IMG/VR virus record: IMGVR_UViG_3300008117_006598
Coordinates: 1 to 44,254 of that record
Length of the DNA stretch: 44,254 bases
DNA from: a virus
Direction: 5' to 3' (one strand)
Within the stretch, counting starts at the first letter, position 1. Every line of letters begins with the position of its first letter. Positions 1 to 39,242 of this stretch are shown piece after piece. The notes below the pieces were generated by a model. It did not search any database. It worked only from the letters and a program-made list of their open reading frames with translations, and was not told the origin of the DNA. Both the position numbers and the translations under genes were made by a program.

Positions 1-306
1 TTACAATACCCAGATTATTATAGTATAACATCTTTACCTGATGAATTAAAAGAAAAAGCAAAACAACACTGGACTTTATACAAAGAAGAATTTCAAAAAT
101 TAGGATGTAACTCTTACATGGAAGAAGAATTTGACAAAGTTCTTAAATATATAGATTTGGAAGAAAGTTATTACACTCATTCATCAAAGGAAGCACGAAT
201 GAAAATCTTTATAGATCAATCACATAAAATTGATGAAATAAGAAATGAAAGCACTGGAGATATAATCCCAGAACTATTACCATGGTTTACAAAAAAATAT
301 GAATAA
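1..306 (+). CDS. Radical-SAM protein, C-terminal end only (cut by window edge)
   Basis: The frame is open from base 1, so this is the last 101 residues of a longer protein whose start lies outside the window. An internal ATG at 118 gives a 62-aa reading, but the frame continues upstream without a stop. The visible part resembles the C-termini of the other radical-SAM proteins here: a helical stretch, then an acidic/aromatic patch and a closing IIPELLPWF, comparable with VFPEF in the 455-aa paralogue at 3966-5333. The cluster-binding core is not visible. It overlaps the next gene by 8 nt (299-306), which indicates translational coupling. Seen: the open frame and the end motif. Inferred: the family assignment, from similarity to neighbours. 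Confidence 0.6.
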   Translation, partial: LQYPDYYSITSLPDELKEKAKQHWTLYKEEFQKLGCNSYMEEEFDKVLKYIDLEESYYTHSSKEARMKIFIDQSHKIDEIRNESTGDIIPELLPWFTKKYE

Positions 307-1483
307 TTTTTGTACTATGCCTTTTAATAGTCTTGAAGTAAGTCCAGACGGAACTGTTAAAGTATGTTGTAAAATTGATAAGGATCTTGAAAAAACATCA
401 AAAATCAAATTTAATGTTTTAAATGACAAAATTGAAGAAATATGGAATTCTGATGATTTAAATAATTTACGTCAACAATTTATTAACAACGAAAAACCCA
501 TTGACTGTAATAAATGTTGGATTGAAGAAAGTTCAGGATTAAAAAGTTTAAGGCTACAAACTATAAATCAGGTATATGATTTACGGAAACCTAAAATTTC
601 TTACTTAAGTTTAAAATTATCCAACAAGTGTAATTTAGCCTGTAGAATTTGTAACCCTACTTTAAGTAGTGTTTGGCAAAATCATTTTGACAAACTAAAT
701 TTAGAACTAACACCTGAACATACATTTAAAACTATTAAATTAGAAAAATTTTCAGGAGATAACCTTCAATCATTACATGAAGCTAGTTCTAATTTACAAC
801 ATTTATTATTATATGGCGGAGAACCTTTAATAAATGAAGAAGTACTAAATTATTTAACATATTTGGTAGACAATAAAATTTCTAGTCAGATTATTTTAAC
901 TCTAAACACGAACGGAACAGTTTATTCTGATGAACTGATAGATCAATTCAAAAAATTTAAAAGAGTAAATTTGTTTTTAAGTATTGATGATGTTGATAAA
1001 AGATTTGAGTATCAACGTTGGCCAGCAAAATGGTCAAAAATTGAGAGCAATTTAAAAAAATATTCTGCGTTAAATGATAACATACATGTAAAATTTTATC
1101 CATCTATAAGTATTTTAAATATAACAGATTTAGGAGAAACTCTAGATAAACTTTCATCTTATGGCATTCCTATAACTTTTAATAATATTATACATGAACC
1201 TAAAATATTAAGTATAAGAAATTTACCAATAAAATTAAAAATAAAAATAATTTCTTATTTAGAATCATTAAATTTTGACAGTTTTCTACTAGACAAGGGT
1301 TATGAAAACCCTAAAGAAGCTTTAATAAACTTTATTAATTTAGACAATGAGTTTGAATTAGATTTATCAGAAGAAAATTATCTTAATAAGATAGTTAATT
1401 ACTTGGATATACATGACAATTTCAGAGGTACGAAACTTAGTGAATATATACCAAACTTATGGAACAATATAAACGAAAAATAA
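299..1483 (+). CDS. Radical-SAM enzyme with N-terminal SPASM-like domain
   Basis: A 394-aa protein. Residues 1-85 look like a SPASM/twitch auxiliary iron-sulfur domain: an FC near the start, then SPDGTVKVCC, then a stretch rich in N, D and L leading to DCNKCW. The radical-SAM core follows, with the CX3CX2C cluster motif in SNKCNLACRICNP (about residues 108-120) and the glycine motif YGGEPL about 60 residues later. Radical-SAM enzymes use a 4Fe-4S cluster to cleave S-adenosylmethionine and start radical chemistry. SPASM members often modify peptides, but the substrate here is unknown. All key residues are present and it looks functional. It starts inside the preceding gene and ends 2 nt before the stop of an oppositely oriented radical-SAM gene. 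Confidence 0.9.
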   Translation: MNNFCTMPFNSLEVSPDGTVKVCCKIDKDLEKTSKIKFNVLNDKIEEIWNSDDLNNLRQQFINNEKPIDCNKCWIEESSGLKSLRLQTINQVYDLRKPKISYLSLKLSNKCNLACRICNPTLSSVWQNHFDKLNLELTPEHTFKTIKLEKFSGDNLQSLHEASSNLQHLLLYGGEPLINEEVLNYLTYLVDNKISSQIILTLNTNGTVYSDELIDQFKKFKRVNLFLSIDDVDKRFEYQRWPAKWSKIESNLKKYSALNDNIHVKFYPSISILNITDLGETLDKLSSYGIPITFNNIIHEPKILSIRNLPIKLKIKIISYLESLNFDSFLLDKGYENPKEALINFINLDNEFELDLSEENYLNKIVNYLDIHDNFRGTKLSEYIPNLWNNINEK

Positions 1484-1485
1484 TT

Positions 1486-2382
1486 TTAACCATTTGCTTG
1501 TGTTTTGCATAAATTATAAAAATTTTGAAGTTCAGGATAATAATCTAATACATCTACGTTTCTTCTAACCTTCATTTGTTCAACAAAATTGTACCAATGT
1601 GTCCTACTTTCAATATCATATTGACTTCTATACTCAGCACTTACTGATTCTGTGAGATTATTTAATAAATCACGGTTATAACTTACCCAAGAGCCGTGTG
1701 CAACGGTTCCTGTTCTAGACATTAATCTCCTAAGTTGTTTGTCATTTTTTTCAGCACAGATTTCTATATATTCTCTAGCTTGATCTAAATATTTACCAAA
1801 GTCACAAGTTAATACGTGGGGATTATGATGTCTGGGAAAACTCACAACATTTTTCATTAATCCTATCTCAAAATCAAATTCATTTATTAAAGAATTAGTC
1901 CAATGAATAAATTCCGGTAAACTAGATACACTAAAACTATTTAAGGCCATTTGAAATCCCATACCAAAATTATTTTCATTTAATCCGTATTTTTCTCTTT
2001 CACTTAAGATTCGGCGAATATTACCCTCAAAACGATTCCAATCTAAACCATACCGTATATACTCGGCTTTTTTACCCAATGCTTCAATGCTAGGTTGAAG
2101 TCGTAGAAACATGTACTTAGTAAGTTCAGGTAAAAGACTTAAAAATCTATCCATTTGAATTTGTTTTGTATTCATGTTTGATAATACACCTAATTCAACG
2201 TGTTTGTCTTTTTTACCTAAATCCTTGTAAGCATGTGTCAACTTTTCAATAACGTCATAAAATTTAGGCATATAGGTCGGTTCACCTCCAAGAATATTAA
2301 TAACTTTACCTGTATGGCGACCAACGTCATAAAACCACTCCCAAAATACTTTTTCTAATTTTTCTGGCGCTACAGATTTCAA
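1486..2382 (-). pseudogene. C-terminal fragment of a broken radical-SAM gene
   Basis: About 297 residues corresponding to the second part of a radical-SAM/SPASM protein. They start at EKVFWEWF and run through the intact glycine motif ILGGEPTY to a conserved end with MKVRRNVDVLDYYPEL. The only available start is a TTG at 2382, which falls inside the end of the N-terminal fragment in another frame. Compared with the intact paralogue at 3966-5333, about 45 residues holding the CX3CX2C cluster motif are missing between the two fragments, and the frame is lost at the join (about 2375-2385). Without that motif the enzyme cannot bind the SAM cluster. Seen: the two frames and the missing motif. Inferred: deletion from an ancestor like the paralogue. 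A metagenomic assembly error is the alternative. Confidence 0.8.
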
Positions 2383-2947
2383 TCATATCAGGGTTGTCTG
2401 CCCGCAAGAAAGGATGATTAAAAGGTAATTCATCTACTGTTTTAGGCATTTTATCTTGATACCACTTTTGTGTATCTCTAACTAAAAAAGGATATGCTTT
2501 ATTAGTTGTAATCATATGACGATGTACAAAATCTCGCAATCCTCCCCGAGGTGAAGAAGAATTATTCCATTCAAGCCTAACACATGATTCACAATCAACG
2601 TGCGTTATACCTAATAATTTCTCTCGGCGTCGATCTTGCTCATAAGGCAAATTTTGTATAGCATCAATTCCGTAAGTATCTAAATCTTCATTTGTTATTA
2701 CCTGTTTAGGTACTCTACAGCATGTTCTAATATGCCCACTCATCAAATTGACGATTGGATAATCCCATTTAAATCTACAAATTACGTTACTAGGATCAAC
2801 CTTTGCAGGAAACGTAGGTTCTTCCATAAAAGTTTTTAATGGTGGAACAGCCACATGTTCTGTTGTTTGATATGTTAATTCGTCTTGTAATTTTGGTTGT
2901 TCAATTATTTCCCAAAATTTCTTAGTTCCAAAGATATTCGTATTCAT
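2327..2947 (-). pseudogene. N-terminal fragment of a broken radical-SAM gene
   Basis: A 206-residue fragment. It has a roughly 50-residue N-terminal extension, then a SPASM-like cysteine domain (CRFKWDYP, IRTCC and CESCVRLE), then a linker ending in PDMIEI. In relatives the radical-SAM cluster motif follows within about 10 residues. Here the frame instead runs into about 16 unrelated residues and stops. The remaining protein continues in another frame (1486-2382). The start overlaps the end of the upstream gene by 26 nt, so the operon arrangement is normal and only the internal segment is missing. The fragment may still be translated but would be inactive. Confidence 0.8.
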
Positions 2948-3509
2948 TAAAAATTGACCTATAATTTATGTTTCTTCTGGTGCTTAGTTTATCTAACTCA
3001 CTAAGTAAAACTTGATGTTTTTCAGAATGTTTTAATTTATGAAAATTAAAACTGTTTTTTAAACTTTCTAAAAAATTAATATATTTTCTATGATTTTTAT
3101 TTTGTAATACAGAGATACATTGATTAACGTAATACTCACCCATAGTAGTATCCATTAAATCAATATGCAAATAATTTGGATATGTTACTATGTTTCCATG
3201 TATGTCAAACAAAGTATTATATTTACGCTCCAAATCTAATACTAACTGTAAGTGTTCTGCAAGTGAGGATAAACATAGTAAATTTATTGTGGTAATATTC
3301 GTAATTTTTATACCTTTTATTTGAGCAAGCTCATTTAAATTTTTCACAAATCTTGGATAATTTAAACCAGAACGAATAAACTCTGCTCGTTCTCCAACTG
3401 ATTCCATGGATACATTTATATTGAATTCAATTTTATGTTTATACCTATCTATGGTATTGCAAAATTTTTCAAAAAACTTATCTTTGGTATAATAAATCAC
3501 CAAATTCAT
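2922..3509 (-). pseudogene. C-terminal fragment of a second broken radical-SAM gene
   Basis: About 195 codons. From KDKFFEKFCNTID onward it aligns by eye with the second half of the radical-SAM core of the 455-aa neighbour, including the shared pattern VSMESVGERAEFIRSGL, and it ends with a typical STRRNINYRSIF tail. The first residues come from reading the end of the N-terminal fragment in another frame. The block with the glycine motif (GGEP) and the strand after it, about 65-75 residues in the paralogue, is absent. The join lies near 3480-3490. Seen: overlapping frames and the absent GGEP. Inferred: an internal deletion of roughly 200 nt that also shifted the frame. Confidence 0.8.
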
Positions 3510-3969
3510 TACTATTGCTATTAATAGGAATATACTTTTTTATATCTCCGTGTGTTTCTTTTTCAATTTGCCATTGACTGCTAAATTCTTCGTTACAGTA
3601 TATGCATTTCAAATCGCAATAATTATCTAACTGAATATCAAGATCATTGGGATTATGAGACTCAATTAAATTTTTATTACTAATCTTATCAAAGTGTTTA
3701 TGCCAGCTATTTGAACCGTCCCTAAAACTTTGTATACCAGAACTTTCAAGATTCCAGCAATAGTTACATCGTTCTGGTTTAGATCCTAGTAACATTTCAT
3801 TACGGGCGTCTTTTATTACGTCCAAATTTAAAAAAACTTCTTCTTTATATTTTTTTAAATCTTCATCTTGTAATTGAATAGATGGTGTTTTACAACAAGT
3901 TCTTACCCTAGTTTTTGCTAAATCAACTATTGGGTAATTCCAAAGTCTCGAACAGAGAAATTCACTCAT
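3478..3969 (-). pseudogene. N-terminal fragment of a second broken radical-SAM gene
   Basis: A 163-residue fragment carrying the complete first half of the enzyme. The SPASM-like cysteines are present (VRTCCKTP and CNYCWNLES). An intact radical-SAM cluster motif follows in NYCDLKCIYCNEEFSSQW. The frame then stops shortly after PINSNSNEFGDLL. The rest of the enzyme continues in a different frame at 2922-3509 after a missing segment. Its ATG overlaps the stop of the 455-aa gene (ATGA at 3966-3969), so it was translationally coupled to that gene. This break removes a different part of the enzyme from the break in the next gene, so one event copied between paralogues cannot explain both. Confidence 0.8.
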
Positions 3970-5333
3970 AATGTTCCCTTCTCATTTGTCTGAGTAATTT
4001 TAGTCTCACCCAATTTATAAAAAGATTCGAATTCTGGAAAAACTTGTAGTATATTAGTTTTTCGGCGATCATCTAATTTTTTTGTATAATTATAAAACCT
4101 TTCTGCGTCCTGCAAACTTTCATTTAATGGTTTATCTTTGTCTATAGACTCTTTAACCGACTTTAGCCACACTAAAAAAGCTTTATAAGAATGTTTTTTA
4201 TTGTCATTGATTTGATAATTTTCATTTAAATCTGTAACTATTTCTATGCACTTGTCAAAATAAATTGCAAACTCTTTTGGAGCAATCATAGGACTTTGTT
4301 CAATTGGATGAGTTACTATATTATGGTGAATGGTCATAAACTTATATTTTTTACAAAGGTTAGCAAAATATTCCAAATACAAATGAAATCTAGGAATTGA
4401 TAATAAATTTAAACATGGCAAAAATGCTAAAGTTACGTTAGTATTGGCAAGTAAATATTCTATGTTTTTAGACCATCTTTCCCACTTAACTCCATTACGT
4501 ATGTATTCTAAATCTTTGCCAATATTTTCTCCGCTAATTTGAATAACTATTTCAAAATATTTTTCTAATTTAGGAATATAATCTAAAAATTTTTGAAAAT
4601 AGGCAACAGGTGTATTAAGGTTACTAGTTATACAAAGCTCCATTTTTTCAATTTTTGTATAAGATGATACTTTATCGTGAATTTTAATTATTTGATCTAA
4701 ACATTCATACAATTCCTCAATAATTAATGGCTCTCCTCCTATAAAACCAAATCTTTTATTAGTGAAAATTGCTTTATTTTCATACCATAACCAAAATAAT
4801 TGCTCTGCTTTATGATTTCTATTATCTTGATTAGTATATGACCAATGTACTTCGTTATGTTTCTTTTTTTCGCTATACCATTGAGTGCTATAAAACTCAC
4901 TGCAATACGTACATTTAGCATCACAAGTATTATTTAAAACTATTTCAATTACATTTGAGTAGTTGCTTTTTTCTAAATTGGGGACATTTTTATATTCATC
5001 AAAACTCAAATGAATATTATTTTTTATGACTTCGTTATTTTTTGCCATAAAATGCATAAATTTACTGTCACTTCTAGAACTTTTATATCCTGCATCCTCT
5101 AGTTGCCAACAGGTGTTACAATCAGAATGTTTTACATCATTTAATAAAGCTTTTCTTCTTTCGACAAAAGCCGGATGGTTCGAAAAAAAATCCGTACCTA
5201 ATTCATCTAATAATTTATCATCTATGGAAATTTTTGGGGTCCTACAGCAATAACCAAATTGGTTAGAAAACATAAAGAACATAGGATAATCCCATGCCAT
5301 ATGGCACATAGTTTTTGTTTTATTTTCAATCAT
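3966..5333 (-). CDS. Radical-SAM enzyme with N-terminal SPASM-like domain
   Basis: A 455-aa intact enzyme and the best reference for its two broken neighbours. The N-terminal cysteine domain has MCHMAWDYP, FGYCCRTP and CNTCWQLED within the first 80 residues. The radical-SAM core begins near residue 130, with NNTCDAKCTYCSEFYSTQW giving the CX3CX2C motif, and FIGGEPLI follows about 60 residues later. The C-terminus ends in DDRRKTNILQVFPEF. The reaction and substrate are unknown. SPASM-type enzymes in cellular genomes often modify ribosomal peptides or sugars. The gene overlaps both neighbours by 4 nt (ATGA), so this is a translationally coupled operon. No key residue is missing. Confidence 0.92.
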   Translation of the reverse strand: MIENKTKTMCHMAWDYPMFFMFSNQFGYCCRTPKISIDDKLLDELGTDFFSNHPAFVERRKALLNDVKHSDCNTCWQLEDAGYKSSRSDSKFMHFMAKNNEVIKNNIHLSFDEYKNVPNLEKSNYSNVIEIVLNNTCDAKCTYCSEFYSTQWYSEKKKHNEVHWSYTNQDNRNHKAEQLFWLWYENKAIFTNKRFGFIGGEPLIIEELYECLDQIIKIHDKVSSYTKIEKMELCITSNLNTPVAYFQKFLDYIPKLEKYFEIVIQISGENIGKDLEYIRNGVKWERWSKNIEYLLANTNVTLAFLPCLNLLSIPRFHLYLEYFANLCKKYKFMTIHHNIVTHPIEQSPMIAPKEFAIYFDKCIEIVTDLNENYQINDNKKHSYKAFLVWLKSVKESIDKDKPLNESLQDAERFYNYTKKLDDRRKTNILQVFPEFESFYKLGETKITQTNEKGTL

Positions 5334-6376
5334 TTTCTATCACCGAATAATATATAATCTTCTTTAGTGTAGCCCTCCATTATTTCAGAGCCTGATCCTT
5401 CTTTTGGACCACTAGTTTTATTTGCTAAACTTCCTCTAATTGGTACTATTGCCCAAGTGCAGTAATCAGTAAAGAAAGGAATATTTTTAAGTTCTTCTTC
5501 AAGTAATAATGTTTCTTCTCTGTTGTGCGGGGCCATCATAAATTTAACTTCAAGGTGTCCTAAATTTCCATGTGTAACTTTTTCTTCTGTTACGGCTCTT
5601 ACTACATTTACAAATTTTTGCCTGTCGTAAAATTCAAAATGCACACTTAAATTTAAGTCACCGTAGTGAATGATTTCTCTATAATAATCTGGCAATCTTG
5701 AACCATTACTATGTAGACTTATGTGGTGTCCACATGTATTAAGATAACGTAACCAATCTAAGAAATGTTTATTTGTTGTAGGTTCCCCACCCGAAATAAT
5801 AAAGTTTACTTGTTGCCCTTTAATAAACTTATCTTCTATTAATCTAGTAGCTTTCATTAATTCTTCTAAGCTTTTATGAGGGTCAGTGTTATTGTGTATC
5901 CAAGGCCAACAATAGCTACAATCATAGTTGCAACGTCTGCCTATTTCCCAGTAAACTTGTTTTTGATTACTAGCATGAGTTCTCTCCATTGCAACAAACT
6001 CTACTAAATCATTATTTCTTAATTCTAATTCTGTATGTAAATCTTGACCACGCCTTAACTTATCTTTAAATTCTATTTTTTGTATTTTAGGTATAAAAAG
6101 ATCGGCACCGCAACTACAAGTTTTTTTGTTACAATCTATCCAATTGTCAGATACAGAAAAATCTTCCCATACATTTCCTAATCGTCCCCCTACCCGACAA
6201 CTAGCAGTCCAAACATAACCATCCATATCAATATATAAATTGTCTACACCAGCGCCGCATTTCCATCCATATAGGTAATTTGCTTTTTGTCCCACTAATT
6301 CATCAGTTGACCAATCTCTCCATTGTCCATCTTTGCTATAAGTTCTAATTGGTTTGCCGGGTGTTATGTCTGCCAT
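5330..6376 (-). CDS. Radical-SAM enzyme with N-terminal SPASM-like domain, divergent type
   Basis: A 348-aa enzyme more distant from the other five. The N-terminal 120 residues have the SPASM layout: KCGAG, then IDMDGYVWTASC, RLGNVWE and a CNKKTCSCG cysteine group. The radical-SAM core follows, with RRCNYDCSYCWPW (CX3CX2C) near residue 150 and IISGGEPTT near residue 195. It looks complete. The ATG at 6376 is preceded by AAGG about 8 nt upstream. That upstream region lies inside a 75-bp tandem duplication. It is the first gene of the minus-strand radical-SAM set, and its stop overlaps the start of the next gene. The substrate is unknown. Confidence 0.9.
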   Translation of the reverse strand: MADITPGKPIRTYSKDGQWRDWSTDELVGQKANYLYGWKCGAGVDNLYIDMDGYVWTASCRVGGRLGNVWEDFSVSDNWIDCNKKTCSCGADLFIPKIQKIEFKDKLRRGQDLHTELELRNNDLVEFVAMERTHASNQKQVYWEIGRRCNYDCSYCWPWIHNNTDPHKSLEELMKATRLIEDKFIKGQQVNFIISGGEPTTNKHFLDWLRYLNTCGHHISLHSNGSRLPDYYREIIHYGDLNLSVHFEFYDRQKFVNVVRAVTEEKVTHGNLGHLEVKFMMAPHNREETLLLEEELKNIPFFTDYCTWAIVPIRGSLANKTSGPKEGSGSEIMEGYTKEDYILFGDRK

Positions 6377-6525
6377 GTGTTTACCTTAATAATTCTATAT
6401 TTAATTTACTGTTACCAACCTTCTAATTTTCTAATTACATCTATTTCTTTTGTGTTTACCTTAATAATTCTATATTTAATTTACTGTTACCAACCTTCTA
6501 ATTTTCTAATTACATCTATTTCTTT
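6376..6525. repeat. Exact 75-bp tandem duplication
   Basis: Bases 6376-6450 are repeated base for base at 6451-6525, and base 6526 also matches. The unit holds the last 12 codons and stop of the upstream 308-aa gene and the whole spacer up to the ATG of the 348-aa radical-SAM gene. That spacer includes the ribosome-binding site and a TTAAATA element (minus strand, 6398-6404 and 6473-6479). The copy next to the 308-aa gene (6487-6525) is the coding one. The other copy leaves a dead gene end at 6412-6450. Identity over 75 bp in a fast-changing phage genome implies a recent event, or an assembly artefact. Confidence 0.95.
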
Positions 6526-7413
6526 TACTAAAGGTCCTAAATTATGTCTACTAGTGTTATAATGTCTTTTGAAAAATTTACTTTGCTCTGCACTAAGCAC
6601 ACACATAGGTAATCCCAATTTATTTTGTAATGCTTCACCTATTTCTTCATTAATATTTTTAGCAGAAGTTTCCCATAATTCAACAAATGTATCAAAGTCT
6701 TGAACTTTATTGTAATCCCAATCAGTAAGCATAGTCATGTAAGTGCCTAAACGGGCACCATATATTGCATAATTGCCGTTCTCAACATCCGCACCCACAT
6801 TATGCCAAACTGTAAGATTATCTAAGTTTCTACTAGCAACACTTTGCTTGAACTTTTCTACTGTAGGTTTCTCTCCATTTACCAAACACATCTTCACGCC
6901 CTCACGAAAGCCAGCTCTCCAAGCTTGAAATGGTGTGTAATTAGGATATGTTGTGCTATAGCAATCATACATACTCCAATACAGTCCATTTGTATAATCT
7001 AAACAAAAATCAACTGTAGTGACATTATTACCATCACTAGCTTCATGAGTTTTCATAGTCTCTACATACGTTTTAGTCCAACTACTGATGCCACCGTTAC
7101 CATACTGCAATCCATTAATAATATTTCTAGCTCTCCAACGATATTGTGCTTGTTGATAACTTTCATCTTTATCCGTAAAATCTAATGTCAAATTAAAAAA
7201 ATCAAAGTCTGGAAGATTATCTCCATCAATTAATATAAATCTTTCAGTGTCAGATTCCTCAGCAGCAGCTTTATGTGCTGCATCACTACCTTTAACACCG
7301 TCAACTCTACGTGCCCAAGGAACCATGTTTTTAATTTTAACCCAAAATTCTTCTTTTTGTGGTTCATCGTAACTAAGGTAAATACAATCTAGGTCTGCAA
7401 TATCAATCTTCAT
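6487..7413 (-). CDS. Glycosyltransferase-like protein, phage type
   Basis: A 308-aa protein. The N-terminal half has the character of a GT-A glycosyltransferase: a hydrophobic strand ending in an acidic motif, RFILIDGDNLPDFDFF (about residues 58-73), which resembles a DXD nucleotide-sugar/metal site. A distinctive central block follows (TVWHNVGADVENGNYAIYGARLG, quoted in two parts: TVWHNVGADVENG and NYAIYGARLG). No signal peptide or membrane segment is seen. The donor and acceptor are unknown. It is co-directional with two other glycosyltransferase-like genes and the radical-SAM genes, and it overlaps the 95-aa gene upstream by 11 nt. Its last 12 codons are duplicated downstream by the 75-bp repeat. 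Glycosyltransferase is a family-level inference from the DXD context. Confidence 0.6.
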   Translation of the reverse strand: MKIDIADLDCIYLSYDEPQKEEFWVKIKNMVPWARRVDGVKGSDAAHKAAAEESDTERFILIDGDNLPDFDFFNLTLDFTDKDESYQQAQYRWRARNIINGLQYGNGGISSWTKTYVETMKTHEASDGNNVTTVDFCLDYTNGLYWSMYDCYSTTYPNYTPFQAWRAGFREGVKMCLVNGEKPTVEKFKQSVASRNLDNLTVWHNVGADVENGNYAIYGARLGTYMTMLTDWDYNKVQDFDTFVELWETSAKNINEEIGEALQNKLGLPMCVLSAEQSKFFKRHYNTSRHNLGPLVKEIDVIRKLEGW

Positions 7414-7690
7414 ATAATTTTAATTTCCATTTTTTTGAATTTGGTTCAGTTGAAATAATACTAACGTCCTCTGTACTACAACTAGTACCTTCTTCTGAAA
7501 CTACTAATTTTGAAATAAGTGACTTTTTAAAAATTTTTACTATTTTACCTTCAACTACTTTTATATCACTTCTACCTTCTGCGTATGTCTGCTGATCTAT
7601 TACAATATAATTTCCTTCTGGTTTTTCACAGGTGTAAAAAAGAACCTTTCCGTGTTCATCGTAATAAAGTCTATATTCAAGCGAATTCAT
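7403..7690 (-). CDS. Small conserved-looking phage protein, unknown function
   Basis: A 95-aa protein, not recognised with certainty. The N-terminal half (YRLYYDEHGKVLFYTCE, then GNYIVIDQQTYAEGR) looks like a small beta-rich fold. A short lysine-rich tail ends in KKWKLKLYED. It has three cysteines and no signal peptide or membrane segment. It sits between two glycosyltransferase-like genes and overlaps both (14 nt and 11 nt), so it belongs to the same transcription and translation unit. It could be an accessory factor of those enzymes or a substrate of the nearby radical-SAM enzymes. Neither is shown by the sequence. Confidence 0.7.
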   Translation of the reverse strand: MNSLEYRLYYDEHGKVLFYTCEKPEGNYIVIDQQTYAEGRSDIKVVEGKIVKIFKKSLISKLVVSEEGTSCSTEDVSIISTEPNSKKWKLKLYED

Positions 7691-8474
7691 GTTCTAGTTT
7701 TTCAGAAAAAGTTTTGACATGATAATGAAACGGATATACTTGTGTAAAGGTATTAACTCTTAAACTTTTTTTAGAGATTTCATAAACTAATTCTTTAGTC
7801 CAATCTTCTGTTTTTAAGTCGTTTATAAATTGTTTCATGTGTACCATACTCATACCAGACCAATTTGGCATAGTAGTTTTTTCAATTCCATATATGTTAC
7901 ATGCAATAGCATATGCCCAGTCAGTAGTAACTAGTTCATTAGGGTCACATTTAAGAACCTGTTTAAAATCATCCCAATTTTCAAAAATAGTTTTTATTGA
8001 TTTAAAAAACATTTCAGAAAAATCACATTTTTTAAAATATGTAATTGCATTATATACATCAGGTAGTTGATTATTATCAATAAATGCTCTGTAGAATCTA
8101 TTCGATGATATGTCACCTTTGTAATTTCTTATACTAGAGCATACTACTAGTTCTCTATTTTTTAAAACTCGCCACCAATAATCTATGTTTACAGGAATAA
8201 ACATATCTGCTTCAAGTTTAATTGTATATTTGTAAGGACTAGCCTCATATACTTGCCAATCATTAACTAATTTCCAATCACTATTAGGCGCAAGATCACC
8301 GTAAGGTAGAGCAATAACATAATCAAAATATTTACTATGCTCTACATCATCTGATATTAAAGAAATACTAGCATTTGGCATAACTTTTTTAACACTATAA
8401 GCTAACATTTCAGCACACTTAACATAGTCAACAGATTTAGTATTTTGTGCCAAAACCACAAATCCTTCATTCAT
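7677..8474 (-). CDS. Glycosyltransferase-like protein (GT-A type)
   Basis: A 265-aa protein with GT-A features. The N-terminal strand GFVVLAQNTKSVDYVKCAEM opens the nucleotide-binding fold. LISDDVEH ends the second strand. YTIKLEADMFIP (around residue 85-96) supplies a DXD-like acidic motif (EAD). TTDWAYAIACNIYG lies in the second half. It is a paralogue of the next upstream gene: both share the opening ...VDYVK-A pattern and the D..AxAIA block. The family normally transfers a sugar from a nucleotide donor. The acceptor is unknown, and a virion protein, DNA or host glycan are all possible. The start at 8474 overlaps the end of the upstream gene by 8 nt. Confidence 0.65.
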   Translation of the reverse strand: MNEGFVVLAQNTKSVDYVKCAEMLAYSVKKVMPNASISLISDDVEHSKYFDYVIALPYGDLAPNSDWKLVNDWQVYEASPYKYTIKLEADMFIPVNIDYWWRVLKNRELVVCSSIRNYKGDISSNRFYRAFIDNNQLPDVYNAITYFKKCDFSEMFFKSIKTIFENWDDFKQVLKCDPNELVTTDWAYAIACNIYGIEKTTMPNWSGMSMVHMKQFINDLKTEDWTKELVYEISKKSLRVNTFTQVYPFHYHVKTFSEKLEHEFA

Positions 8475-9228
8475 TAAAAATCTCCATAAAATTATTTTTA
8501 TCCAACATGTGAAAATCTAAATCTTTTACGATTATGTATTTAGGTTTCTCTTGATCCAGAATAACTTTGTATTCTGTTTCAGTCAATCTTTCAATCTTAG
8601 TTCTTTCACTAACATGAATTAAATTCCACGGAATAAAATGTTTTTTATTTTCTATATGACCATTTAATATTCTATTTGCAATAGCGAACGCATGATCATT
8701 TCTATAAGTCGTAGACCACATTCCATGTAAATCTATGTAATGTTTATAATTTTCTTGAACCATTTTAACACATTCAAAAAATAATTTTACTCTTTGTGTT
8801 TTTCTAAAAAAGAACACTGTTGCCCACAAAGTGTTAAATCCTGTAGGACTTATAAATTCTTGTGGTTCATTAGGATACATCAAAAAGCCTGTCGTATTAT
8901 GTATGCAATAATCTTCATAAAAAGAAAACACATTATTTAATTTATTTGAGTTAATTACATAATCAACATCTAACAATAAAGTCTCATCATATGGACTTAA
9001 CTCATATGCGTGATATCTACCTTTGTTATACCAAACTTTATTATGTTTGGAGTTAGTATCATCTTTATTAAAATAAACTATATTATCAAATTTTAAGTCA
9101 GTTGGTTGATCTGTTACTAAAGTGCAGGGTAATCCTAAGAACCTGTTTACTCTATTAGCAGTAATGTGAGCCATTTTAACATAATCAACTTCACTATTGT
9201 TAAATGCAAAAAGTAGGACACCTTTCAT
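8467..9228 (-). CDS. Glycosyltransferase-like protein (GT-A type), paralogue of its neighbour
   Basis: A 253-aa protein. It opens with GVLLFAFNNSEVDYVKMAH, has TLVTDQPTDLKFD at the second strand, and then ETLLLDVDYVIN with a clear DXD motif (DVD) near residue 88. The RNDHAFAIANRILNG block matches the D..AxAIA block of the 265-aa neighbour, so the pair arose by duplication. No membrane segment or signal peptide is visible, so it is probably cytoplasmic. It overlaps the 101-aa gene upstream by 4 nt and the 265-aa gene downstream by 8 nt. The sugar and acceptor are unknown. Confidence 0.65.
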   Translation of the reverse strand: MKGVLLFAFNNSEVDYVKMAHITANRVNRFLGLPCTLVTDQPTDLKFDNIVYFNKDDTNSKHNKVWYNKGRYHAYELSPYDETLLLDVDYVINSNKLNNVFSFYEDYCIHNTTGFLMYPNEPQEFISPTGFNTLWATVFFFRKTQRVKLFFECVKMVQENYKHYIDLHGMWSTTYRNDHAFAIANRILNGHIENKKHFIPWNLIHVSERTKIERLTETEYKVILDQEKPKYIIVKDLDFHMLDKNNFMEIFNE

Positions 9229-12639: not shown

Positions 12640-15600
12640 TTAATCATTTTTAAGAAAATTAGCTGGCACCGATGTGCTTAACTGCAGCGGATCTCCATCT
12701 ACTGTGTAATTTTCTGTGTTCCATGTCTTGTTGTAGAAGAATGGGTCCAAAACATCTTTTGCGGACAAGCTGTAGACGTTTGAATATACAGGATGTTCAT
12801 TTAAAACCGCAGTACCATCAACTCCCCTATGAAGCCCTGATAAGGTGTTATTTTGATAATCTACGTTATTAAACATAATTTTTTCCCCATTTATAAGCAC
12901 AGAATTTCCAAAACGTATCGTAACCTGCAAATTATTACTTAAACTTACATTGTTAATTAAAATTATCTGCGTTACAGAATTAGTAGTAGTTATGTAATAA
13001 TCATCTGCACTTAAATTTACATTAGTAGTTAAATTAAGCACAGATACCTCTTTAATGTCTTTTACATTATAATTTAAATTAGTGTAATATCTTTGTTTAG
13101 TTTGATCAAATAATGCTACTTGATTTAGAGTGGTAAGATCAACTAAATGTTCTACTTCTTTTACATAAATTTTTGTATCTGTTGTATACAACGGTCTTTC
13201 TAACCAAGTTCTGTTTCTAAAATTACTATTGTAGACCGCTCCTTGACCCTTGCGATTAACTATCATAGTGTACCAAAGCTCATTGGGAGTTGGAGAAGGC
13301 ATATAACTTGTAACTAAAACCACATCTCCTACATTTATACGTGTCATAATGCTAAGTTTATTGTTTGGTTGACTGATTCTTAAATTATTTGAAGTAACCT
13401 TAGTCCCATTTACTGTTACAAATAATCTTTCTACATCAACAATATCAAAAGATGGTTGATTTATTGTAAATGTAGTTGCATTTTTCCAAATAAAACCTCC
13501 GCCTGAAATTCCTGAATCAAAATAAGGGCCATACGTGTTACCTATAACCGGATATGCTAAATCAAAATCTAAATAAAGTTCAAAAGGATAGTAAGTAATT
13601 GCACTTTCAACATACGTTGGTAATGGTTTAACATAGAAAACGTTATTATTAATTTGAGACATATTACGAACACCGTCTATGAGAACTGCATCTTTGGCTA
13701 TTAAGTTAGGATTTACTATCGTAGTTACAACTATAGGAGTTGAAGGTGTGTTTATATAATTAATAGGAGTGACCTGTAAAGTATTAGAAAAGTCTGTTAC
13801 AAAAGACTGTGCATAGGTGTCATTAAATGTAGTGATACTAACAATATTGTTTACACTTAACGAAGAAATAATAGTTAACACACTGCCTGATATAGTATAA
13901 TTTACACCATATCTTTGCCTTACGCCATTAATTTCTACAATAGAATTTGTAATATTATCTCCGCCCATTGAATTAGTGAGAGTAAAAGTTGCGGGACCAC
14001 TGACATATCTAAAAGTTTGAGTTTCTGGAATACAATATTGATATGAGTGAGATATATCTTCGGTAGCACCAAATATAGCAAAACTTACAAAATCACTACT
14101 TAAGTTAATTGACTTTTGAAACACTATTTTTATTGAGCCAGATTGATTTGGTTCTAAAATATAGTCAACATTAAGAGTTTGTTTAACTGAATTTAAAAAC
14201 ACTATTGAGTACAAATAAGCATCACTATTAAATGGGTAATTGGTGTTTATAAATCTTCTATTAATAGCTAAATCTAGTTGTAGTGGGTAAGAATCTGATG
14301 TGCCTTTAACTTGTTGATTACCACTTCCTATCTCATATACTTCAACATAAAGTGATTCTGTTGAAGAAATAGGTCCTACTAACTGGACTGTTTTATTGAC
14401 CCAATCTATTTTTGAAATTTTTAATGAACCTGTAGTTGGAGCTAAAGGTATAGTTTCATATATTCTTGATCCTCTTCCTGTTGAATTGTTAACTATGTAT
14501 AAAGCTAATTTTGTAGGATAATCAACTAAATTTTTGAAAGAGAACGACAAGTTGTTATCCAATCTTACAAAAGCACTAGCTACTTTAAAACCAAAATGTT
14601 CATAAGTTGTTGGATCCCATAGAGATCCGGCAGAAGTTTTTATAGTCATTGATAAATTATCGTAAACTACAGCTGGAATCATTTCTTCTGGACCATAACC
14701 AGATAAAAAGTTATCCCCCTTTACTTCATAAATTGGAACTAATGAATTTATTAAAGAAACATTTTCCCAAGTACTTATATCCTTACTTCTTAAAATTGTT
14801 GAGTTTTCACCTACAACGATAAAATACGTACCATCATACGAAATTTGATTTAAATTTTGATTTGTTATTGGGTTTAATGTAAACCATTGTTTGCCCTCGC
14901 CACTATATAATATATTTCCATTATCACCAACTACTACAAATGTGCCGTTTGCATAAATTCCATAATTTATATTAAATGAAACATTACCGAGGATTTCAGC
15001 CTGAAACCAGTTAGTTCCATTATTTGACCAATATATTTGTGCATTTTCTCCGGCTGCTACTATAGTTGTCAATGAGCTACAAACAGTGTTAAACTTAGCA
15101 TCAAACTTAATATCTACTTTACTCCAACTATTTCCTTCAAAACCAAGCAACACTCTAGCACGATTTTCTATAAGAGGATACGCAGTACCTGCGTCAGCTA
15201 TAACTTCTAAACCATATCCAACAGCAATAAATCCTTGGTACGTCGGTAAAATTCCATTTACAAACGTCACTGATTTTATTGAATTTGGTAATTGACTACC
15301 GAACGAAAATTGGGTGTTCCATTCGGTAGCATTTGCACTTAAAATTATAGTTTCACCGACTGCAATGTATAAATCATTATAATAGGTTGACGAATTCAAT
15401 ATTTCCTGAGGTGCCCCAACCGAAAGTGTATCATAACCACCTATGTCGTAATACCCGTCATCAAAAACTGTGTACTCACCTGTGCTTACCCAGCTATAAC
15501 CGTCATAGCTAATAAGAATGGGGCTAGGAGCATTTAATGAGGTTATTATATAATAAGATCCTGAATAATTTATATCGGTTACTTGCAAAGATTGTGGGCT

Positions 15601-18600
15601 TATCTTTTTCCAAGTCCAATTTTTGCCGTCTGTGCTATATAATGCTATAGAATACTCAGGTGTATTACCGACCGCTATATATTTTACCCCATCGAATACT
15701 ATGCTCTTAATGTCAATGTCTTTAGGGTAGAACTTTTCACCTTTCAATAATACATCAAATTCATAATCTTCGTCAAACTTGTTAGATAAAAAAGTGCTAT
15801 TAGGGTATTCCAGTCCTGACATAAGAAGTGGTAAATTTTTACCTGGCATGTCTATAGTAGGCTGATAATATGTAACAATTCTATCTAATGCGTTAATTTC
15901 ATCAAAATCACTAGCTAAAAATTCCCATTTTGTAATGTCAAAAGTAGAGTCTGTGTTTGATTCTATGCAACGATACAATTTATTATTGTAGGCAACTAAA
16001 GATGCTCCTCCAGCACCACGCAACGGTTCTGGTAAAAATCCTAAACTACCAGAATTAAAAATAAACGGATTGCTTACCGTATTTTTCACAGGATTTAATT
16101 CTTGATAATCAGTGTATAATTTCAATTGTGTGGTGTTTATAGGCTCTACAAAATATTGGTCAAAAGCTTTTGTGCAAATTCCATCAAGTCTATAAAAAAT
16201 AATTTCGCCTAAATAGGCAAATGTTATTGTAATTATTAAATCATTAGTTGGTGTGGTTCCACCTAGCAAGTTACCTGGAATTGTTATGATGTCGCCTGTG
16301 CTGTATATAGAACCGTAATCTTTGATATCGATTGAATACTTATTTTCAACAATAACTCCATTAAATGTTGGACTTGTTACCCAAATTATTGCGCCACCTG
16401 AACCTGATGTATCATATACATACGGAGATGTTAAATTAGTTAAATTATAAAAGTATAATTGCTTTTTATAAAGATTACCAGGTGACAATGAACTATTATT
16501 ATAATTAACTGTAATAGTCACTTCTAAGGTAGTTGGATCTGTACTTACTCCTGTTACCGGTAAAGTAGCACCCTGTAAGCTTGTGTTGTAAACCACTGGA
16601 GGCAATCCTTCAACATAAATGCTTTCTATTGCTCCTGCAAAATTTACACTTTGCACGCTAATTACCGCATTGTTTAAAGGAGTGGTTCCACCTAAATCAG
16701 TTCCCGAAATAGTAATTATGTCATTAGGTTGATAATTAATACCTGCACTGTTTATAGATGCTGTGTAAATGCCGTACTGTGGGCCATCTGACCAAACAAA
16801 CGGAGGATTATTTGCTCCACCGTAAACCCAGTTGTAAACATTAAACACTGCGCCTGTGCCTAAATTATTAGTTGTACCAGTTAGACCTATAAATTCTATT
16901 GACTCTGCTAACTGATTTCCTATACTTGCGTCGTTACCAGAACTGTTGTATCTCTGTATGTAAAACTGATTGGGTTGCCATTCTTGTACAATTGGTTTGT
17001 AAGACGTTCTATCAAATTTTAATTTAGGTATAATCTGTCTAGTTGGCGTATTACTTGAGATTGGAATTAATCTTGCACTAATATTAAAACTATGATTTTG
17101 GCTGGCAGAGCTTTCCACCAAAACTACTCTATGAACATCATTAATTGCATTTATTTTTGAAGTATACAATGCTGTTGCAACTAAAGTATTTTTATTTTGT
17201 TCTGTAATAATCGGAGAAGTTAAACCATATTCTATTAATCTCACATAATAAAAAGCTTTATCGACTAATCCTAAAATAGTAGATACATTATCCTCTTTTT
17301 TATATTGAATTAAATCCCCTGTTACAAATAAGAAAATAGGAATATTAATTGTGTTATTACTAAAATTGATGTCTGAGGAGTTAAAGTAATGCAATATAGA
17401 GGGTTCTACAACAATCTCAGGCAAAACCTTATACCCTTCACCGGGATTTAATACAGTAACTCCTATTACCTTATCTCCAGACATTTCTGCTTGTAATGCA
17501 GCCTGCACTTTTGGTGCTGGATATATTGATGTATCTATTCTTGTTACAATGTTTGGTGGTTCTGTGTACCCGCGAGCTGTGTCTAGCACTGACACTGCAG
17601 GAAGATCAATATATACATTTGTGTTTGGTATATGATCTGCGACATTGCTATCATATGCCCCTCTGGTCAGTCCTGTTAATATTCCTTTATCTCTGTCAAC
17701 GTTCGTGTACCCTATAAATTCATCGTCTATCTTAATTACACCTACTGCAGGGTATCCAAATGCATTATCAACAACGATATAAGTTGTGGCTATCGGTACG
17801 TATTCTTTTAATTTGCCAATAACATAATTATTAGAATTTAAAAGTTTAATTCCGTAATTGTTATACCACTGATTATATTCATACTTTTTCCATACAGGAT
17901 CATCTGAATTATATTGTGAAGGAGAAGAACTTTCACCAAATACAAGCTCAGGAGTAATAAACGTATCTTGATTGCTATTCCATTGAGCTGGTAAATCAAA
18001 ATCTGTTATATTACCATCATACAAATCAGTTCGTGAATATTTTAAGCTAAATTCTTTTAATTTTACTCTGTAAGGTTTAACTTCATTTATATAACCTAAA
18101 AGAAAATCTTCGTTGTCACGTTGGAAATTTTTACTCTGTACTAATTCTCTTAAGGTGTGCTCTACATCTAAAAATGAAGTTTTATTTAACCAAGGAAGAT
18201 AATTACCAAATTCGTCGCTTTCAGTTAAAATGTAATTAAACATTAAAATAAGACTCTTATTTCTGTGAATTTGTAAATCTTCTGTATAAACTTCTTCGTT
18301 AAGACCTCTTACGATATTAAATGTTTCTTGTGAAGGGAAATAATCAAAAGGTGTAGAATCAAAGAAGGTATCACCGAAACCAAATCCTCCTTCAGAGTAA
18401 TCATAAAGGGAACTTTTAATTTGTATTGTTCCTTCCTGTAACCCAATTCTTTCCCAATTCGCATCATTGTAGATATATACCTCACGTTTACCGTTACTGT
18501 TAGATTGTACTCCAACAATCATATTGGAATAAGGACTTAGTTTTTCTAAATCATAATATTTTTCAACTTCCATGTCAGTTTTGGTGGAATCATTGTAACC

Positions 18601-21600
18601 TTCTGCCCACCAATCCACAAACTCCCAAAAATTATTTGTATCAAAATATTCGCCTGTTAATGTAAAGAATGCTGGTGCATTTATTCCAGTTAAAGCTAAT
18701 CCGCCTAAGGTAAGAAAACTTGGATTTTTTAACTCAGTAATTGGGTACTGTAACATCACATAATTTGCATATTGGCAATAATTTTCTAAAGCCTTAAGTC
18801 TATCATAGAAAAAACTTTGATTTGGTCTTGTATCAGTGCCCGTTTGTAAAAGTTTAGGTAAGAACGGGTTAGGTATTTCTTGTCCTAATGAATCTACACC
18901 GGCAAAACTGTCTAAAAACTTTTTATATAAGCCTGAAGGTTCAAATACACTATTATATAAGGTTGGTATGCCAGGAAGAAAATCTTCTTTATAATTTTCT
19001 CTAATTAATTGATATTCATTGTGAATTGTATCTTCAGAAGTTGCTGTTTTAAATCCAATATGTATACTTGTATAATTAGCTCCAACAAATGTGTTAATAT
19101 TGTAAAGTCCAAAAACGTTAGTTTTCAGTGGTGCAAAGAAAGAAATACCAGATAATAAAGGATTTTTAATATAATCGCTTATAACATTATCAGGTAATGT
19201 TTTAGTGTTATCAAGTATCGTTCCTACATTTTTTACCCAATAATAGTATTTTGCAACAAGCACCCCTGCATCTGTTAAACTAAACAGAGTAGTATATGCA
19301 TCAGGATCATTTATTTGCCCAGTTCCTGTATAATTTATAGGTAATTGATCACTTTCAATCCACGTATAAACTGAAACTACGCTATCAGGAAACACTGTTG
19401 CCCAATATTTACTATTATAAGTTGTGTCATTTTGATGGTAATTAACAAATTTAACCTGTGACAAATCAAACCATAACTTACCTAAATATTCTTTACCCCA
19501 AACAATTTTTCTATTAGAATCTTCAGTATTATATCCAGCTGGGTCAACAGGCGAAATAAAATCTAAATTTTCTCTGACAACACCAAACAATTTTCCTTGT
19601 AAGGGGTCGATGTAATCTAAACTTGTTATGTTCAAATTATCTAAGTTATTAAATAATTGTATACTATTAATTTTTTGTATATCAACTTCATCCACTGGTT
19701 TTCTATAGACAGAATAATTTGTCTGATATTCTAAGTTTGTAAAAATATTAACTTTGCCATTTTCAGTTCCTGACAAATAGGTTGGAGAACCGATTAAAAT
19801 ATTATAATTATTAAAAGCTAAAGAGTAGCCATAATATGGAACCTTTAAGTAAGAAAGGGTCGAATCATTAATAATTTGAGACAATACAAATTTGCCTACA
19901 TTTGCAATATTTTCATTATTTGCAGGTAAATAATCATAGAGGTAAGCTGACCCTACATCAAATAATATGTCAATAAATGTTGTAAAATTATTGTCAAATA
20001 TGGTATCATTTGTAAAATTTTCATCATCAGTAAAATCAAATACTGTAGGTGAATTACGATTGCTAGCTGGAGCTGTTATGACAACGCTACCTAATTCATT
20101 AAATTTAACTTGCTGTCCAAATAGTGTGCTGTTTTGTACTTTATAATCTTGTAAAAATTGTGTTTTTTGATATAATGTTATGCCTAAACTTGCTAAATCA
20201 GCAGCGTCAAAAACAGTCAAATTTAATTTATCACGTGATAGATTTAAATTTTGATTTACCAGTTCAATAATTAACTTATTATCATCTGTTTTAGAAGCCA
20301 TTATATTTGGAATATTAGAATTATTAATTGTTGCGATTGCATCGTTTATTCCAGAACTTGGTAAAATAACACTATAACCATTTAATAAAATTGTTTTTTG
20401 TGTAGTTAAATTATAAACAGATGTTCCTTTTATTATACCATATGATTTTCCCTCACTGGTATAACGATACACTGTACCTTCTTGAGTTGTTTCATTTCTA
20501 ATGTCGTAGGGTGCGCTAATTAATAACTCGTTTCCTGTTACAGTAGTATCTAAGCTGCTTCCATACAACATTCCTACTCTAGGATTAGGAACTTCTGTAT
20601 AACCTGTTAAGGTTTGTGTTAATATAAAATCAGAACTCTCCACTACAATTATATCACCTGCATTAACTTGAACTTTTATAGTCAATTTGTTAGTTGAAAG
20701 AGAATAATCGCTAGAACTCAATACAGTATCATTGTAAAGAACTCTGATAGCAGAGCCGGTTAATGTTGGTGTCCATGCTAATGTTATAATTAACTGCGTA
20801 TCTAAAACTAAATTATTAGGTTGTTTATAAACCTGTCGTATCCTATCATAAACATAAACTCCCCCAGTATCTGTATTAAGCAAATAATCCTGATTAGGTG
20901 CGCCAACATACAATTTTGTACCGTCATAATTAGTCGCTAAACTAAGTCCGAAACCAGTTGCTGCTGCTGCGCCTGTTATAGTTGCTACACTTGTATAACC
21001 GTAGTATCCTCTATACACAGTCGTGCCGGAAGTTACACTTGTTTCAAATTTACCATCTATAAAGAATGTAGTCCTATTAGGCCCAGAACTATATTCTCCG
21101 GAAATTATTCTATATGTTGTAGGGCTATTTACATTTGTAAAACTTACAAATTGTCCTTCTGTTAATAAAGTTAATCTATTGCCAGAAACGGTAAATGATG
21201 AATTACCGGCTTGAACACTACTTGCAAGAGTGTAGCCAATACTTATAAAACTTAAGCTACTATTTTTTCTGTAAACAAATATTTGTCTAGTGCTAGATTT
21301 TGATATGAACAGATAATTTGTATCATCAGACAATGCAATCTTGTCTACTGTAGTCGTTGAATATGTAACTAATGGGTTCGTATTAGCAGCATTGTCCGCT
21401 TGTAGTGCAACTCCTTCTATATTATTAGTTTTTACAAGCTCATAAACCCAAATTGTACTTGTTGGAGTTGAAGTGGTTTTTGATACTACCATAATATTAT
21501 TTTTAATTACGATATTAGTGCCGTAACCAATTCCATTATTGATAGTGTCTGCTAATGCGTATGAATTTAAAAGACTATCGTATAGGTACCTATACAATTT

Positions 21601-24600
21601 ACCAGTTCCTGAGTCTGCGACAAAGTAACCTAACAGTGGACTATAAGCAACTGCATTACCAAATGTTGATGTAGACTCGGGTTTAATGAAGTTGGTATTT
21701 TTATAATTTAAACTTTTTCTATAAACAGCCCATTTATCATCAACATCATTGTCAACCCAAATCGTATTTTTAACAAATTCTGTACCAGTCAAATTTAAAG
21801 TTGAAATGTTCGCAGGAGAAGAAACACGACGATTATCAAGTTTAGCTATTAAACCAATTGAAACTATCGATAATGTATCTGTTGGTAAAATTAAATCTAT
21901 TATGATAGCATTTAAATTTACAACTTTATTTACAGTATAAAATCCATCTACTGGTTCGGCATAATAAAGAATTAAAATTATATCGTTAGCAACTAAATTA
22001 TGAGGATTATCAAAAAACAATGTTGCTGTATTGTTTAAATTATTTACAACATTTTTGATTTTTGCAATAGTTCCATTATTAGGAATTAAAGAATTGATAC
22101 TGTAAATTTTCCAATCATTTTTAAAATCAGCTATCCAAATATATTCATTTTTATATAAATTATAAATGTTAGTATTAGTACGAAGTCCATTAATTTTAAA
22201 TGAATAGGCTTTAACGTCATTAAAGTTTACATATCCTGCTGAAGGTAGCCCACTATAATTTTCATCTTTAAGTAATGGTAAAATATCTGTTCCAGTTATT
22301 GTGCTACGATAATTTGTAATTGAATTAAGGGGTACCTCAAATGATGCTCCTTGCTCTGACTCACCATCTATAACAGCCACTACATTAGGATTATTATTAA
22401 GTTTTTGTTCTTCTAACTTAAATTCAATAAAATTGCTATTGTTTAACCCGCCATAGCTTCCTAAATTAATTGCCCAGTTTTCAAATACTTGATAATCAAT
22501 ACCGCCTGTATGTAGTTTAATATTTTGAATAGCTGAAGCACTTATATTACTACCTTTTTCAACAATCATTGTTTTGTATAAGTTAACCTGCGATATATCG
22601 TCAAGGTTGGCAGCTGCCAAATAATTTCTTGGACGATATCCTATTAATGAAAATGCCAATAAATCTGCATCATTTTCTAAATTTGCTGAATAAGCATCGT
22701 AGTATAAAGTGCTTTCATATGCTCTGTTGCTTGCATTTGGTAATAAACCCTTTTGAATTTCATCATAATCAACTTTAGTCCATAGCCCTTGTTGAAAGGT
22801 TGGATTAGGTTGAACGATAGTGTTTGCTGCATAATAATTACTCTTGTATTTTACAATAATTCCTTTAGTGTACTTAACACTTGGTGACCATTCTTCTACA
22901 TTATCTAGATTTAATATAAATCCTTTTGTATCAACAGTGCCTTCCCAAGTTGCAGTTTTAGAACCTTTTAATAGAATTCTATATTGTCTTAGCCCAGTTA
23001 ATGGATCAAAAATTAAATCATTAAACAAAGTAGTATTATCAAATATTATTGCGTGTTCAAAATTACTAAGATTTCCAGTGAAATATGCGACTGTATCATC
23101 AGAAGTTAAGGGTATCGCTGTAAAATTAGTTCCATCTCTAATAATTGACAAATCTTTAATCTGTATTGGAATTAAATTTTGATTTAAAATATAATTTTGG
23201 TTTTGTATAGTTAGTGGTTGTACAATTGCATTTTCTTTTTCAATTACAATCTTTGAGGCCATTGGATTGATGTTTAGGATCGCGCCAACCTCCCAACCAG
23301 ATTGAGCCCAAGTTAGAACCTCAAATATCATTGAGTTCCAATTTAATAAAACGTTACCCTCTACTTGATCAAATATTAATCCTTGACTATTTAAATAATT
23401 TCCATACGAATTTATAAACTCAGCAAGTGCTTGGATACTTGTAAATTCGTTACCATACGGTACAACAATTTCTTTTTCGCTAAAATTTTTAGATACTTTT
23501 ACAGATAATGAACCTGAAGTGATAGTGTCGTATTTTCCATTCTTTAAAGGAGCAAAGGTTTTAAAATAAATTTTATTTTGAGAATTTCCATATACTTTAT
23601 AGCCAACATTAGTCTTTTGAATTATTATTGAACTGTAAATAATAGTATCAAATGGTTGATTTTCGTGTAATATAACAGAATAACTTTCATCTGGTATTAA
23701 TAAAGAATTGTTTAAACTGTTTGGCGTTCCTTTATCTACATAAAACTTTAACAAATTCTTATCACTGAAACCTGCTAATCTATAGACTAATCGTACATCC
23801 AAATTGTTAAGATAAACAGATAAAACATCATATCCTAAATTTCCTGTGCTTTGAATATAGTCTACTATCCAGTTTAAATAACTGTGTTGCGCTGTACCAC
23901 TGCCATACAATACTGCATTCAGTCCAGTAAATCTAAACTTATTATCTATAAGGTATTGATTAAATTCTGTGCTAAATTTGTATTCATCTAGATTTACGCA
24001 TAGAGAGAAAAACTTTGCAGGTTTACACAAGATTAAAATTTTAAGTAAATCAAACGGCCAAGTACTACTTTTTATATAACTATACTCAGACGCACCCCAA
24101 TCATTAACTTTCCATGGAGTTTTAAAACTTAGCTCATCATAATTTCCTACCCCTGAATTCATAGGATCTACTAAATTGCCTAAACTATCAACAGGTAAAA
24201 TTTGTTTAAATCCGGGACGTTTACGTGAATCAATAGTTCGAGGATTTCCATTGTTATAATCATATCCATTCTCTATATCATCCCACAAAACATCATTGTC
24301 TTTGGTATATGGGGCGGGACCATAATAATCTTCCCACCAAATTGGTTTATTAGTATAACCTATCATTTCCCAAGGTGTTAAATTAGGAGTTGTGGTATCA
24401 AAAAACCAATTATACATACCTCTCCAATTGCCGCGTTTCATAATTGTTCCATCTAATCTGTTTGTAGCAGTAGAGTAGTTGTATGTGAAGGGGTTAGTTG
24501 TATCGTAATATTGCTGTTTATAATCAATTCTATTTTTACCTACCCAATTTAGGAAGGACAAAGAATATAAATTAATTATTTCTTCATAGTTATATTTTGT

Positions 24601-39221: not shown

Positions 39222-39242
39222 CTTAAATTCCTCTTATTTATA

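Follow-up and report, generated by a model that had tools for sequence, protein, structure and literature searches.

The IMG/VR virus record IMGVR_UViG_3300008117_006598, whose entire 44,254 bases (classification linear) form the window analysed here, holds at 1-6376 six genes of the radical S-adenosylmethionine (radical-SAM) type, F and E on the plus strand and D, C, B and A on the minus strand. SPASM/twitch enzymes are described with their auxiliary domain as an extension at the C-terminus, whereas five of the six genes here (A to E) place a cysteine-rich domain ahead of the radical-SAM core or, in broken genes, of its remnant. We find that in E and its relatives this N-terminal domain is a true SPASM/twitch relative placed before the core, and by analogy with the family it is predicted to bind a cluster; A has a different, twitch-like domain in the same position. 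A sequence-only reading of this DNA had described five genes with a SPASM-like pattern ahead of CX3CX2C and GGEP: the domain does come first in all five, but D lacks the CX3CX2C segment and C the GGEP segment.

The N-terminal twitch domain and its family

The clearest case is E (299-1483, plus strand), an intact gene of 394 residues with the core motifs CNLACRIC and GGEP, whose N-terminal twitch domain occupies residues 4-74 (308-520). Pfam SPASM (PF13186) matched residues 5-74 at 2.6e-10, and the same family scored over cut-off at the N-terminus of seven further relatives. In an unprompted search of PDB, profile positions 4-73 aligned with the C-terminal twitch of BtrN (4m7t, residues 186-257) at an E-value of 4.7e-8, with all four twitch cysteines in register. 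An unrelated zinc domain, the outcome that had been named as counting against a SPASM-like identity, is rejected by these two profile matches. The AlphaFold (AF2) model of E, structure prediction having been proposed as a check, is confident (mean predicted local distance difference test score, pLDDT, 90.8; N-terminal domain ~93), and its elements follow the sequence published for the twitch of SkfB (PMC6231123): a hairpin, a short and then a long helix, and CxxC. By the Pfam match, the BtrN alignment and the model alike the domain order of E is reversed, with the auxiliary domain at residues 4-74 and the core from ~103, and the permutation first read from the letters is borne out.

We took as a twitch a domain with a cysteine on either side of a hairpin, in the published signature CX9-15GX4C (PMC6231123), followed by two helices and then CxxC or CxC, with one cluster, and as a full SPASM domain one with seven cysteines (CX9-15GX4C-gap-CX2CX5CX3C-gap-C) and two clusters. 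E shows C5-x12-G18-x4-C23 and then C70 and C73. When 69 diverse relatives were aligned with E, C23, C70 and C73 were invariant and C5 nearly so, which makes the twitch cysteines as strict as the core cysteines C111/C115/C118 and the GGE motif kept in the same alignment; chance can hardly account for this pattern. Since the N-terminal cysteines conserved in the 69 sequences are these four only, we read the domain as a one-cluster twitch and reject a full SPASM domain; the SPASM-like label thus held for kinship, through Pfam SPASM and BtrN, and failed for the seven-cysteine form.

This layout is already catalogued. The NCBIfam model NF033640 (N_Twi_rSAM, "twitch domain-containing radical SAM protein") likewise has the twitch before the core, and both E (5.5e-89, 299 bits) and B (1.6e-63, 215 bits) pass its curated cut-off of 170 bits, while C, D and F match it only in pieces along the model; the model carries no function, and a partial literature search found no paper naming it. 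The Pfam core family PF04055 scored over cut-off for E and A and slightly below it for B (26 bits against 29.5), which belongs to the radical-SAM superfamily by motif (CX3CX2C and GGE-type). KVP40-like Vibrio phages have proteins annotated as "moaA/nifB/pqqE family" (phrog_14086 type) that match E from residue 2, mostly at two or more places per genome, but these are 21-27% identical to E and lie in another genomic setting. A T4-like marine virus reported in 2017, TARA_ERS488813_N000010 (PMC5332604), has an ATC gene and 12 radical-SAM genes; it resembles the window phage in being T4-like and in combining many radical-SAM genes with iron-sulphur (Fe-S) assembly genes, although the relevant section of that paper does not describe their domain order.

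Outside phages, a close comparison for the auxiliary domain is BtrN, a twitch radical-SAM dehydrogenase of butirosin biosynthesis, which differs in having the opposite domain order and in acting on an aminocyclitol in an antibiotic pathway. SkfB, SuiB, CteB, anSME and PqqE share a related core and auxiliary-cluster type; their auxiliary domain, again, follows the core.

Six genes, their integrity and their relatives

Three genes of the array are intact (E, B and A), two are broken (C and D) and one, F, is a fragment at the contig end. B (3966-5333, minus strand; 455 residues) has orthologues at L037:2114-3487 and L017:10976-12358, two related phage loci; a search with short peptide patterns confirmed no relatives of B, and the orthologues turned up later, adjoining A. 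F (1-306, plus strand), truncated by the contig end, is the C-terminal part of an N_Twi radical-SAM gene and matches NF033640 positions 310-396 at 6.6e-10, in agreement with the earlier description of a sixth gene visible only at its C-terminus. By eye its C-terminus resembles that of L037:8318-9535 (minus strand), its likely full-length orthologue, which has an N-terminal Pfam SPASM match of 4.3e-8.

The broken genes are both on the minus strand. D (1486-2947; open reading frames 2327-2947 and 1486-2382), compared with the intact L037:4682-6283, is short of ~120-140 nucleotides with a frameshift at ~2371-2385, and the missing segment holds all three core cysteines. C (2922-3969; open reading frames 3478-3969 and 2922-3509), compared with the intact L037:3487-4704, is short of ~170-185 nucleotides that include the GGEP segment, with a frameshift at ~3490-3503. 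These breaks may be mutations or assembly errors. One explanation is that the array is decaying in the window phage and is at least partly dispensable cargo, which would be compatible with any functional reading: the frame-breaking losses remove catalytic motifs, and with two of five testable copies broken at least part of the array would be dispensable. We consider such decay unlikely: A, B and E have no such breaks, both L037 and L017 retain whole copies of C and D, no further contig of this species spanning the breaks in C or D came up in exact-DNA scans, and an exact tandem repeat of 75 bp (6376-6525) hints at assembly trouble. That repeat spans the end of the gene at 6487-7413 and the start of A, and arose either through recent duplication or during assembly.

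Each of E, B, C and D grouped in a maximum-likelihood tree with its orthologues from other phages (L037 and L017; bootstrap support 99-100%). One clade united B, C and D (100/100), and E fell in another. The nearest relatives of each tested gene being in other phages, the duplication must be old and a recent tandem duplication is rejected; expansion by duplication, as first proposed, therefore stands for the deep past, where B, C and D form one old clade, and falls for recent time. Counts of copies per genome, which had also been suggested, gave 4-13 Radical_SAM matches per record in 16 virus records (the window included), and 17 of the 19 records with A have NF033640 members over cut-off. The gene order A, B, C, D, E is common to L017, L018 and L037. 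The L017 and L018 records (524,565 and 170,963 bases) carry the same array, and the larger of them may be joined or chimeric.

A (5330-6376, minus strand), an intact gene of 348 residues, lies outside NF033640: it scored 28.6 bits against the required 170, over residues 134-237 of the core only. It was also rejected as a viperin (NF038283; 46.6 bits against a cut-off of 180). Relatives of A were found at 51 viral loci, most of the full-length ones 69-82% identical; at 1e-5 there was no match in cultured phages, and cellular genomes gave a single match, L072 (61% identical); its 13-kb contig belongs to a Bdellovibrionaceae metagenome-assembled genome and is possibly a phage contig binned with a host. 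In 25 sequences the cysteines C40, C60, C82, C87 and C89 never vary. At its N-terminal end A has a twitch-like domain at residues 38-97 (6086-6265, minus strand), and the core begins at residue 149. This domain proved homologous (hhalign probability 99.5%) to one at the C-terminus of 16 core-first, canonical-order radical-SAM proteins from related loci, and so the same domain occurs on both sides of the core within these viruses. Profile comparison failed to show a common origin of the A-type and NF033640-type N-terminal domains (hhalign 15.9%), and the two domain moves may accordingly be independent. In a partial literature search we found no description of family A, nor of a virus group in which one twitch domain occurs both before and after the core.

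Gene context and candidate function

The window has the gene set of a T4-like phage, including a late sigma factor, an SbcC/SbcD-type nuclease, and baseplate wedge, hub and tail lysozyme; comparison with a phage collection for near-identical genomes found no close relative. A single open reading frame of 5,294 codons at 12640-28524 is flanked by baseplate and fibre genes. A-D are on the tail-gene strand, and together with the genes lying between 9530 and 6487 they mostly overlap or nearly touch (maximum gap 110 bases), this run of minus-strand genes sitting behind the baseplate and fibre genes. A candidate T4-type late promoter, TATAAATA, lies at 39235-39242 on the strand of A-D, 13 bases upstream of a structural-gene ATG at 39221; this T4 late-promoter core is depleted in the window, with 2 matches against 12.4 expected.

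Several neighbours resemble sugar enzymes. The conserved gene at 6487-7413 (minus strand) has an invariant DGD motif and is sugar-transferase-like by motif only, a fold search having given no PDB or Pfam match. Two adjoining genes, 7677-8474 and 8467-9228 (together 7677-9228, minus strand), have DxD-like motifs and are possibly GT8-like glycosyltransferases; their sole PDB matches, to glycogenin-2 at E-values of 0.44 and 0.9, are not significant. Close to the relatives of A there are genes for a carbamoyltransferase, for a cytidylyltransferase (CTP_transf) with a mannose-6-phosphate isomerase C-terminus and for methyltransferases. Other neighbours resembled 2-oxoglutarate oxygenases and sulfotransferases by eye, and library and PDB searches gave no confirming match for these. 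In pelagimyophages, host-recognition clusters carry glycosyltransferases and radical-SAM cassettes (PMC7029224). Fe-S assembly genes (NifU_N/IscU-type and IscA-type/Fe-S_biosyn) occur close to A in related viruses (L033:1397-1777, L034:2029-2352). L066:9034-11616 encodes a B12-binding radical-SAM protein, the cluster of which was present at 25 of the 52 loci examined around A.

We speculate, with a rough probability of 0.45, that the array encodes late-acting radical-SAM oxidoreductases that tailor the sugars of a virion or host-surface glycan. By analogy with the family, the core cluster would cleave SAM and the resulting 5'-deoxyadenosyl radical would abstract a hydrogen atom from the substrate, while the twitch cluster would bind the substrate or take an electron, as proposed for BtrN. 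For this arrangement a one-cluster twitch domain would have been relocated from behind the core to its front. Topology would make such a relocation cheap: the C-terminal twitch of SkfB folds back onto the core, where its first strand packs against strand beta-1 (PMC6231123). Substrate and timing are suggested by gene context. A-D share the strand of the tail genes and, with the overlapping genes and the late-promoter-like motif both fitting a late operon, would act late on a glycan of the tail fibres or the host surface. Their partners would be nearby genes, in the window or in relatives, of the sugar-transferase-like, carbamoyltransferase, nucleotidyltransferase and methyltransferase kinds, and in some phages IscU/IscA would be provided for Fe-S supply. 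The sugar-like substrates of BtrN, the twitch match, and of BlsE, the top PDB match of A, argue for sugar tailoring. Several points weigh against it: neither a substrate or product nor a glycan was observed, the transferase-like genes of the window are without a significant glycosyltransferase match, the KVP40 relatives are located outside an annotated tail-fibre region, and AlphaFold modelled A poorly (mean pLDDT 70.7; ~60 in its N-terminal domain).

A further point against sugar tailoring is that the peptide-modifying TigE, SkfB, CteB and SuiB resemble the core no less in sequence and fold. As the closest core relatives thus include peptide maturases, protein modification is a serious rival: the enzymes would oxidise, epimerise or cross-link side chains of tail-fibre or baseplate proteins, as do maturases of proteins and of ribosomally synthesised and post-translationally modified peptides (RiPPs). 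The best PDB relatives of the core (the four just named and anSME) are in keeping with this, as are the giant, repetitive tail-side proteins that adjoin the arrays. Yet SkfB, SuiB and CteB have an N-terminal RiPP recognition element (RRE), and a Pfam search of ten relatives found no leader-binding domain of that type here; the overlapping genes of the window array leave no space for a separate precursor-peptide gene, though a distant precursor is possible, and the neighbours resemble sugar enzymes instead. On balance we regard protein modification as a doubtful but real contender.

Radical-SAM enzymes are known in phage DNA hypermodification, and the core has weak similarity to the viperin and QueE families, both of which would fit a role in hypermodifying phage DNA or a nucleotide, either as a shield against host nucleases or to make an antiviral-like nucleotide. 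We think this very unlikely: the viperin model score of A is far under its cut-off, and the minus-strand genes come after late structural genes rather than among early genes of DNA metabolism.

A bolder form of the sugar-tailoring reading, which we hold to be improbable, is that these genes belong to a multi-enzyme line of N-terminal-twitch proteins, in some viruses with a phage Fe-S supply, that builds a sugar, modified by radical chemistry, on the virion or on the host surface. In that case the twitch would have crossed the core at least twice independently, once in the NF033640 type and once in the A type, the second move being traceable to canonical-order enzymes that persist in related arrays.

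Whatever the substrate, a family with the auxiliary domain in front of the core, beside relatives of canonical order, offers a natural test of whether position in the chain affects catalysis. These arrays also point to a large reservoir of radical enzymes in aquatic phages, adjoining tail and sugar-modifying genes, and enzymes so placed could influence how these phages recognise their hosts.

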